A stretch of 47,659 nucleotides of DNA from Natronomonas aquatica (GTDB lineage: Archaea > Halobacteriota > Halobacteria > Halobacteriales > Haloarculaceae), in assembly GCF_024449025.1 (NCBI RefSeq), contig NZ_JAHLKM010000005.1, forward strand, positions 1 to 47,659, in the 5' to 3' direction. The position numbers and the translations under genes are program-made. Positions 25,084 through 27,587 of the stretch are shown here, piece after piece (positions within the stretch are counted from its first letter, which is position 1; every line of letters begins with the position of its first letter). The notes beneath the pieces were generated by a model. It was not told where the DNA came from, did no database searches, and was given only the letters and a program-made list of their open reading frames with translations.

Positions 25084-25091
25084 TTTTAGGC
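25084..25091 (+). promoter_or_regulatory. Half iron-box near dpsA promoter
   Basis: TTTTAGGC equals one arm of the palindrome at 26271-26286. No matching second arm is present, so a role in dpsA control is only possible. Confidence 0.25.
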
Positions 25092-25119
25092 GGTACAAAA
25101 AATATACATATATTGATAA

Positions 25120-25127
25120 CTTATAAG
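25120..25127 (+). promoter_or_regulatory. dpsA TATA box
   Basis: CTTATAAG, itself a palindrome, is about 32 bases before ATG 25155 in a long AT-rich leader (25010-25130) that also contains AATATACATATATTG. Confidence 0.6.
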
Positions 25128-25154
25128 TGCGTCGCGCGCATACTAGGGAACGTA

Positions 25155-25700
25155 ATGAGTACCCAAAAAGAAACTCGACAGCAAGCGGGCACCGTCGAGG
25201 AGAACTCGCTTCGGCTCGAGACCGAAAAGGCCGAGCAGATCATCGACGCGCTGAACTCGGATCTGGCGGATGCGTACGTCCTCTATCACCAGCTCCACAA
25301 GCACCACTGGAACATCGAGGGCGCCGAGTATCTCCCAGTCCACGAGTTCCTCCAGGAGATCTACGAGGACGTCGAGGCCGCCGCCGACGAGCTCGCCGAA
25401 CGGCTGCAGTCGCTCGGCGGCGTCCCCCACGCGGGCATGCCGGCGCTTTCGGAGAACGCCACGGTCGAACCGGAGGACGAGGACGTCTACGACATCCGCA
25501 CGTCGCTGTCGAACGACCTGGAGATGATGGGCGATATCATCGAGAGTTACCGCGAACACATCGACCTCGCGGAGGGACTCGGCGATTACGCGACCGGCGA
25601 GATACTCCGGGGACAACTGGAGACGATCGAGGAACACACCCACCACATCGAACACTACCTCGAGGACGACACGTTAGTGATCGAATCCGCGACGAACTGA
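25155..25700 (+). CDS. dpsA: Dps-family ferritin-like protein (DpsA)
   Basis: A 181-residue four-helix-bundle protein that oxidises and stores iron in a 12-subunit shell and protects DNA against peroxide. HKHHWNIEG and the following HEFLQEIYEDVEAAADELAERL form the intersubunit ferroxidase site, and SLGGVP is the usual turn. The last helix carries EHTHHIEHYLED, a His-rich stretch that may help iron entry. ATG 25155 is preferred to an upstream in-frame start because the extra residues are basic and not Dps-like. The gene has a rich AT promoter and converges on the amphi-Trp operon, whose own promoter holds an iron-box-like palindrome. Confidence 0.94.
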   Translation: MSTQKETRQQAGTVEENSLRLETEKAEQIIDALNSDLADAYVLYHQLHKHHWNIEGAEYLPVHEFLQEIYEDVEAAADELAERLQSLGGVPHAGMPALSENATVEPEDEDVYDIRTSLSNDLEMMGDIIESYREHIDLAEGLGDYATGEILRGQLETIEEHTHHIEHYLEDDTLVIESATN

Positions 25701-25727: not shown

Positions 25728-26090
25728 TTACTCGACAGTCGGCGCGCTGTCGTCGGTTCGGCCGGGCAGTTCGAGTTCGATCTCCAGTTCCGGCTCGCCG
25801 ACGCCCTCGAAGTCGATCTCTAGTTCGATCGGCTCGCCGAAGGCGAAGGGAAGTTCCCACTCGTCTGTCACCAGCCGCACCTCGTCGCTTCCGCGGAGCT
25901 GTTCGCCAAGCTCGATCAGGAAGTCGCCGGCCTCGGACGCGTCCAGCCGGTAGTGTTCCTCGAAGTTCCGACCGGAGCGAACCGTCGTCCGATCGGCCGT
26001 CGGTTCCGGGGCGGGATCGATATCGGACTCGGCCTCGACGTCGGCCCCGGCCTCGGGTTCGGCGTCGGCGGGTGGCGATCGGTCGGTCAT
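25728..26090 (-). CDS. Amphi-Trp domain protein
   Basis: A 120-residue protein. A Pro/Glu/Ala-rich N-terminus (about 40 residues) precedes a domain that runs NFEEHYRLDASEAGDFLIELGEQL, then beta strands VRLVTDEWELPFAFGEPIELEIDFEG and LEIELELPG. This matches the amphi-Trp domain, a small haloarchaeal and bacterial module of unknown function. ATG 26090 is supported because the longer frame would overlap the preceding small gene. It lies 4 bases after that gene, so both are one operon behind the iron-box promoter. Confidence 0.75.
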   Translation of the reverse strand: MTDRSPPADAEPEAGADVEAESDIDPAPEPTADRTTVRSGRNFEEHYRLDASEAGDFLIELGEQLRGSDEVRLVTDEWELPFAFGEPIELEIDFEGVGEPELEIELELPGRTDDSAPTVE

Positions 26091-26094
26091 ATCG

Positions 26095-26262
26095 CTACCG
26101 GGGCACGTCGACCGTGAGGTCGCTCGCGATCCACCCGTCGGTGTTTTCGGCTTCGATAAATATAGACGTGCCCGGACAGCTCTCACAGACGGTGATATCC
26201 GGACACTGGTCGGATTCCGGTTCGGATGGGGGGCCGGATCGTGATCTGGTTTCCGCGGGCAT
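26095..26262 (-). CDS. Tiny CxxC-containing protein of the iron-box operon
   Basis: A 55-residue ORF: a polar Pro/Ser/Glu-rich head, then CPDITVCESCPGTSIF with three cysteines (20, 26, 29), and an end reading DGWIASDLTVDVPR. The WIASDLTVDV end resembles small haloarchaeal DUF7331-type proteins. The cysteine cluster could bind a metal. ATG 26262 lies about 27 bases from the minus-strand TATA region, so leaderless expression fits; an in-frame ATG at 26271 would add three residues and overlap the palindrome. It is the first gene of a two-gene operon with the amphi-Trp gene (4-base gap). The function is unknown. Confidence 0.65.
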   Translation of the reverse strand: MPAETRSRSGPPSEPESDQCPDITVCESCPGTSIFIEAENTDGWIASDLTVDVPR

Positions 26263-26270
26263 TAACACCA

Positions 26271-26286
26271 TTTAGGCATGCCTAAA
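26271..26286 (-). promoter_or_regulatory. 16-bp DtxR/SirR-type palindrome in promoter
   Basis: TTTAGGCATGCCTAAA is a perfect 16-base palindrome between the TATA region (26284-26294 on this strand, CTTTTTATTTTAG) and the start of the CxxC gene. It resembles the TTAGG...CCTAA operators of DtxR-family metal regulators (IdeR, SirR, Idr), which bind with Fe2+ and block transcription. A regulator bound here would cover the transcription start. Confidence 0.6.
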
Positions 26287-26450
26287 ATAAAAAGTATGCG
26301 ATCGACGGCGTCGATCGGTCCGACCCGAACCATCCGGTATCCCGACGGCGGAGACGGACGGATTGATCGACAAAGCGGGTCGTTTGGGGGGCCGTACCGG
26401 CCCGATAGCAGAAACTGATTAGTGCGGTCGGCGAACGGGAACGGACACCG

Positions 26451-27587
26451 ATGGAGATCGAAACGATAGAAGCGGTACCGCTCCGGCGCGAGCTGGACGG
26501 GACGTTCGCGAACGCACAGAAGTGGATCGACAGCAGAGAGTACTGTCTCGTCAGGATCGAGACCGTCGACGGAACCGTCGGCTGGGGGGAGTGTTGGGGC
26601 CCCGTCGCCGGCAACCGGGAGCTCATCGAGGAGTACGTCGCCCCGTGGCTGACCGGCCAGCGCGTCGACGACGTAGAGCGGATCCACGACGAACTCGTCT
26701 TCAAGCTCAGGTCGTCGTATCACTCGTTCGTCCCGGTGAGTGTCGTCAGCGGTATCGACATCGCACTCTGGGACGCCTACGGGAAGTCCGTCGACCGGTC
26801 GGTGTCCCGACTCCTGGGCGGGCGGTACCGCGAGGAGGTCCGGGCGTACGCGACCGGACACTTCTTCAGGGACGTCGAGGAGTTCGAGACGTTACAGTCG
26901 ATCATCGCCGACGAGGCCCGCGGCCACGTCGACGCCGGGTTCACCGCACTCAAACAGAAGATCGGCCTGTCCGGACACTTCCCGTGGGGCCCCGAAGAGG
27001 ACATCGAACTCGTCCGGACGGTGCGTGAGGCGGTCGGCGACGAGATCGATCTGATGGTCGATGCGAACCACGCCTACGATATAGCCACCGCGAAACGGGT
27101 CGCATGCGGGATCGAAGACCTCGACGTCCGGTTCTTCGAGGAACCGGTCCGCCCCGAGATCGCGTACTACTCGCGGCTCAAAGAGGACGTGACCGTCCCG
27201 ATCGCGGGCGGGGAGTCGTGGGCGTTCCAACACGAGTTCAACCGGGTGCTCTCGGAGAACGCGGCCGATTACGTCCAGCCCGACGTGACCAGCGCGGGCG
27301 GGATCACCTCGACCGAACGGGTCGCAACGCTCGCCGACAGCGAGAACGTCCAGTGTCTGCCCCACGTGTTCGGGAGTGCGATCGCGCTCGCCGCCAGCCT
27401 CCAGGTCATCGCGACGATCCCCGGCGAGCCGATGTTAGAGTTCGATAGAACCCCGAACCCGATCCGTGAGGACCTCGCGGCGGATCCGATAACCAACGAC
27501 GGCGACGTCGTCCGAATCCGCGACAGACCGGGGCTGGGGATCGAGATCGACGAAGCGGTCCTCGAATCGTTCCGCGCGGACGGGTGA
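26451..27587 (+). CDS. Mandelate racemase/muconate-lactonizing enzyme family protein
   Basis: A 378-residue enolase-superfamily enzyme. The general bases and metal ligands are visible: Lys168-x-Lys170 (KQK), Asp204 (DAN), Glu230 (FEEP), Glu255 (GGES) and His305 (PHVFG). These are the MR-subgroup set, with the second-strand KxK and a His, and so can abstract a proton alpha to a carboxylate. Sugar-acid dehydratases such as galactonate, gluconate or xylonate dehydratase are the usual haloarchaeal roles, but no sugar genes are adjacent, so I give no substrate. It ends 28 bases before the convergent thioesterase. Confidence 0.88.
   Translation: MEIETIEAVPLRRELDGTFANAQKWIDSREYCLVRIETVDGTVGWGECWGPVAGNRELIEEYVAPWLTGQRVDDVERIHDELVFKLRSSYHSFVPVSVVSGIDIALWDAYGKSVDRSVSRLLGGRYREEVRAYATGHFFRDVEEFETLQSIIADEARGHVDAGFTALKQKIGLSGHFPWGPEEDIELVRTVREAVGDEIDLMVDANHAYDIATAKRVACGIEDLDVRFFEEPVRPEIAYYSRLKEDVTVPIAGGESWAFQHEFNRVLSENAADYVQPDVTSAGGITSTERVATLADSENVQCLPHVFGSAIALAASLQVIATIPGEPMLEFDRTPNPIREDLAADPITNDGDVVRIRDRPGLGIEIDEAVLESFRADG

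Follow-up and report, generated by a model that had tools for sequence, protein, structure and literature searches.

A conserved DtxR/IdeR-type operator marks a putative iron-responsive small-protein operon facing dpsA in haloarchaea

We describe a haloarchaeal operon, headed by the gene for a small protein, that is likely to be iron-responsive: to judge from the promoters at the locus, a DtxR/IdeR-family regulator would repress it when iron is plentiful, and a degenerate version of the same operator would switch on the iron-storage gene dpsA, which the operon faces. The small protein represents an uncharacterised family, widespread in haloarchaea, that this reading places in iron starvation beside the iron store.

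Results

An iron box fills the small-gene promoter

The window analysed here is the whole 47,659-nucleotide stretch of Natronomonas aquatica contig NZ_JAHLKM010000005.1. Read on the minus strand, the elements of the locus follow one another in the order TATA-like run, palindrome, small-gene ATG, amphi-Trp gene and stop codon of the facing dpsA. The palindrome, TTTAGGCATGCCTAAA (26271-26286, minus strand), is perfect over its 16 bp, contains the core TTAGGN4CCTAA (26272-26285) and is abutted on its upstream side by the TATA-like run CTTTTTATTT (about 26286-26295, minus strand), which we identify from sequence. Shuffling of the window gave a chance expectation of none for this palindrome, with up to three mismatches allowed. 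The small gene encodes 55 residues (26095-26262, minus strand) and is assigned the ATG at 26262 rather than the in-frame ATG at 26271 because its relatives keep a 23-nt spacing between box and ATG. Four bases separate its stop from the start of the amphi-Trp domain gene (120 residues; 25728-26090, minus strand), which lies 27 bp from the convergent dpsA (181 residues; 25155-25700, plus strand). The dpsA product contains a Dps/ferritin-like domain (Pfam PF00210; E 3.8e-33, 114.8 bits against a cut-off of 24.5). The coordinates thus bear out the architecture of the original prediction, in which a perfect palindrome between a TATA box and the start of a 55-residue ORF was followed by an amphi-Trp gene after 4 bases, in an operon converging on dpsA.

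With the 55-residue protein as query we searched 292 Halobacteria genomes, took the best 80 loci with 4-kb flanks and added 40 weaker matches, the resulting 120 related loci representing, by our own count, 107 haloarchaeal genomes (a single-sequence search of named genomes returned only six relatives of the small protein). The palindrome had been expected to recur ahead of orthologs and indeed it does: it is perfect and in the same spot in 79 of the best 80 loci and in 33 of the 40 weaker matches, 112 of 120 in all. In nearly all of the best 80 loci the box starts 22-23 nt 5' of the start codon, just past the TATA box, and the box-bearing loci span most of the haloarchaeal families sampled. 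Among 45 non-redundant promoters each of the ten half-site positions carries 2.0 bits, the flanks being variable save for the TATA run, a BRE-like patch and the start codon; a T-run at −8 to −4 from the box is likewise conserved in the promoter alignment. No other feature of the locus is as conserved as the box.

As for controls, none of 30 canonical DUF7331 loci has a box within 3 kb, and in 649 kb of related loci the TTAGG arrangement occurs 151 times, against 0 or 1 for each of 29 other half-site permutations. Moreover, 59 genomes contain 3-28 exact sites each, mostly far above a reversed-pattern control.

The 14-bp core, TTAGGNNNNCCTAA, is the TTAGGN4CCTAA consensus of the IdeR/DtxR iron regulators that was proposed after IdeR-DNA structures (PMC8464063), in agreement with the earlier description of the palindrome as iron-box-like, and we regard the palindrome as almost certainly the operator of a DtxR-family regulator. 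The link to iron goes beyond the shape of the site, because the consensus match is joined by an adjoining DtxR-family gene in many genomes and by sister sites ahead of iron-uptake-type genes, so that the iron connection originally drawn from operator and neighbour is strengthened by both. Given where the box lies in the promoter, repression of the small operon in iron-rich cells is very likely.

Linkage to DtxR-family genes and to dpsA

In 41 of the best 80 loci there is a DtxR-family gene no more than 4 kb away, and 12 of these 41 linked regulators possess a box of their own; the one in Natronomonas sp. CBA1123 (L163) matches both PF01325 and PF02742 above cut-off. No linked DtxR gene is present at the locus in the window genome, and the acting regulator there would therefore have to be an unlinked one. 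The genome encodes two DtxR-family proteins, L157 (SirR-like) and L158 (Idr-like), with PF01325 scores of 67.6 and 63.5 bits, and these are the candidates. In the window, the place that the linked DtxR gene holds in relatives is filled by an enolase-superfamily gene (26451-27587). At L158:1022-1935 a DtxR-type gene directly follows a gene that appears ferritin-like by eye, without a Pfam match.

One alternative is that the small protein, as a co-regulator, feeds back on the DtxR protein encoded next to it, dpsA being a mere bystander of an iron island. The DtxR-type gene is immediately upstream and on the same strand in 35 of the best 80 loci, which along with the boxes that some of these regulators have of their own would fit such a role, but dpsA is convergent in 56 of the 80 and its linkage is thus the commoner, and the box and the dpsA neighbour are kept in many genomes that have no linked regulator, the window genome included. 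We therefore consider a co-regulator unlikely. The convergence noted in the window is accordingly a recurrent one. In L156, L173, L184, L204, L205 and L208, box-less paralogs of the small gene likewise converge on a dps gene; the link to dps thus outlives the iron box.

The distance between the stop codons of the operon and dpsA has a median of 30 bp (53 loci), close to the 27 bp of the window, and this proximity allows the alternative that, under iron starvation, read-through from the operon enters dpsA from the opposite side and lowers its expression. The protein product matters, however: the reading frame is kept in relatives and the gene is under purifying selection, with a median dN/dS of 0.16 (77 pairs), by which we take the small ORF to be a real gene, and the core of the protein is nearly invariant at P30, E37, N40, D42, G43, W44, I45 and D48. 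The genes are moreover more than 100 bp apart in some loci. An effect of the transcript itself is in our judgement quite improbable.

A degenerate iron box upstream of dpsA

None of 61 dpsA genes has a perfect box nearby. Alignment of 47 non-redundant dpsA promoters instead reveals a degenerate iron-box element, TTTAGGYNGTRCGAAAA, in 33 of them, mostly 70 nt 5' of the ATG, upstream of the TATA box and in the register of the iron box, from which it differs by two fixed changes in the second half. In the window this putative activator site reads TTTAGGCGGTACAAAAA (25085-25101, plus strand) and is located ~70 nt 5' of the dpsA ATG, upstream of a TATA-like element, CTTATAAGT (25120-25128, plus strand), recognised from the sequence and the aligned promoters. 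Of the dpsA loci with a linked DtxR gene, 39 of 42 carry the element, versus 11 of 53 among those without one (Fisher p 6e-13, a value that ignores shared ancestry).

Being upstream of the TATA box, the degenerate site has the position expected of an archaeal activator site, and for this reason we propose that it activates dpsA, which we hold to be reasonably probable. IdeR offers a precedent, in that boxes covering a promoter repress and boxes upstream of it activate the ferritin gene bfrB (PMC10317159), and Halobacterium DpsA is reported to be lower in iron deficiency (review, PMC3600143). The element may instead be the site of another factor, since it carries two fixed changes and most dpsA genes that have no linked regulator lack it. 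A dpsA-type element, TTTAGGN5CGAAAAA, is also present 5' of a gene that is NifU-like by eye in L233, L243 and L249, in two of which this gene adjoins a DtxR-type gene; the NifU-like gene is a possible second iron-activated target.

Sister sites in the genome and the metal sensed

A pattern search of the 3.2-Mb genome finds the exact TTAGGN4CCTAA at six sites. One is that of the window and the other five are confined to one stretch of contig C70 (L076), in a cluster with an Fe-type ABC transporter; the genes near these boxes include those for an SBP_bac_8/6-type binding protein that resembles the ferric-iron kind and for an ABC permease. In two other genomes, sister sites are found ahead of siderophore-type Peripla_BP_2 and Fe3+-type binding proteins, ABC ATPases and DUF5059 proteins, so that the iron-type genes behind sister sites include, over the three genomes, those for Peripla_BP_2 and SBP_bac_8/6 binding proteins, an ABC permease and ATPases. 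The L077 island runs in the order regulator, small gene, amphi-Trp gene and facing dpsA, followed by a double box with the gene of a siderophore-type binding protein.

These neighbours bear on the metal to which the operator responds. The DtxR family contains manganese sensors, the metal sensed by a homologue can be Mn instead of Fe, and Halobacterium SirR is reported to repress its own gene in a Mn(II)-dependent manner (PMC3600143), so that with a SirR-like protein (L157) encoded in the window genome the operator could be real and yet serve a SirR/MntR-type protein, the small operon then belonging to manganese homeostasis. Against this, the sister sites of the three genomes lie at siderophore- and Fe3+-type binding proteins and not at known Mn transporters, and the iron store dpsA is linked to the locus, joined in L077 by the gene of a siderophore-type binding protein; we rate a manganese operon as improbable.

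In nineteen cases two iron boxes form a pair with a spacing of exactly 36 bp (L077, L081-L085, L106-L124 and other 8-kb loci). The pairs inspected precede siderophore-type binding proteins, and the upstream box is sometimes degenerate (CCGAAAAA).

The small protein and its amphi-Trp neighbour

The small protein is a distant relative of DUF7331 (PF24018), which it matches weakly over its whole length (21.0 bits, below the cut-off of 27). All seven members of set A2 match DUF7331, the best no better than E 0.00048. In the small-protein alignment the C-terminal 30 residues are conserved and the N-terminus is variable. AlphaFold2, run with few relatives, returned a poor model (pLDDT 57) with one hairpin at residues 23-37.

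The three cysteines of the original prediction, C20, C26 and C29, are indeed present in the window copy, but a CxxC as the defining trait does not survive the alignment: position 26 is Cys in 76 of 81 proteins and His in others, C29 occurs in 32 of 81, C20 is rare, and a lone Cys or His is common among the orthologs. The idea of a CxxC zinc-finger microprotein with an incidental iron box, which the cysteines of the window copy had favoured, is thus left very improbable, for the cysteine pairs needed as metal ligands are not conserved, only position 26 (Cys or His) being kept, and the box that it would dismiss is the best-conserved feature at the locus. A [2Fe-2S] ferredoxin of the Bfd type was also considered and rejected, as the four conserved cysteines are missing from the alignment and there is no profile match.

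The amphi-Trp protein passes the NCBIfam model TIGR04354 (41.9 bits, cut-off 31) and falls below the Pfam PF20068 cut-off (21.2 versus 27 bits); it is the lowest-scoring of four copies in the window genome, and its AlphaFold2 model, again with few relatives, is poor (pLDDT 44). The pair of the earlier view is not an obligate one, because the amphi-Trp gene adjoins the small gene in only 40 of the best 80 loci, which makes it an optional partner. A literature search for amphi-Trp or HVO_0537 found no paper that names either.

Discussion

In the mechanism that we propose, an Fe(II)-loaded regulator of the DtxR/IdeR family would bind the palindrome, which takes up the interval from TATA box to start codon, and under plentiful iron would block transcription of the small operon; iron starvation would release the regulator from the site. 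The same or a sister regulator, bound to the degenerate site upstream of the dpsA TATA box, would turn dpsA on when iron is plentiful, and the small operon and dpsA would thus probably be switched by iron in opposite directions. The small protein, alone or together with the amphi-Trp protein, might then work on DpsA during starvation, one possibility being that it aids the exit of iron; such a low-iron partnership with DpsA is the function that we favour, as a tentative suggestion.

The operator and the regulator family are of known kinds. In the IdeR/DtxR regulon of Actinobacteria uptake genes are repressed and bfrA/bfrB activated through an operator of the same 14 bp as here, and both that regulon and the present locus have a box over the promoter of a starvation-type gene and a storage-gene site upstream, in the activator position (PMC8464063, PMC10317159). 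The haloarchaeal locus differs in its archaeal promoter architecture, in the small-protein operon facing the storage gene and in having one half-degenerate site at dpsA rather than the several boxes of bfrB. The mechanism of activation by IdeR is described as unresolved (PMC10317159), and the locus offers a compact case in which one archaeal metal regulator would repress and activate facing genes through the quality and position of its sites. Among haloarchaea, a role in iron homeostasis is reported for Idr1 and Idr2 of Halobacterium and Idr, SirR and TroR of Haloferax volcanii (as cited in PMC11349517), regulators whose family also supplies the gene that lies beside this operon in many genomes. 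The small protein goes unmentioned in the text of the iron-starvation proteome of Hfx. volcanii (PMC11349517). Our literature search, which did not take in the main haloarchaeal DtxR regulon studies, found no paper on this protein family or on the facing arrangement.

As to the protein itself, it shares with DUF7331 a similar tryptophan-centred C-terminal motif, but scores below the cut-off of that family, whose canonical members are without the iron box (0 of 30). Bfd, the bacterioferritin-associated ferredoxin, is a small low-iron protein encoded beside an iron-store gene. The likeness of the small protein to Bfd is confined to the proposed role, since it has no four-cysteine [2Fe-2S] motif and its sequence is unrelated. 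Should DpsA prove to be its target, the small protein would bear on the retrieval of iron from Dps-type stores. A fuller and less likely version of the model would have a DpsA partner unrelated to Bfd, made at low iron only for emptying the store, and one DtxR-type regulator reading two versions of its operator, a perfect one downstream of the TATA box by which the partner is repressed and a degenerate one upstream of the TATA box by which the store is activated.

Two further observations concern other genes behind iron boxes. In L076:4952-14651, which has five boxes in 10 kb, boxes are also found ahead of genes for an LPG_synthase_TM protein, a reversibly glycosylated polypeptide-like enzyme and a glycosyltransferase, a hint that surface glycosylation may be under iron control. 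DUF5059 proteins are encoded behind iron boxes in L219 and L226, one of them with a plastocyanin domain, suggesting a copper-for-iron switch or a role in iron for DUF5059.
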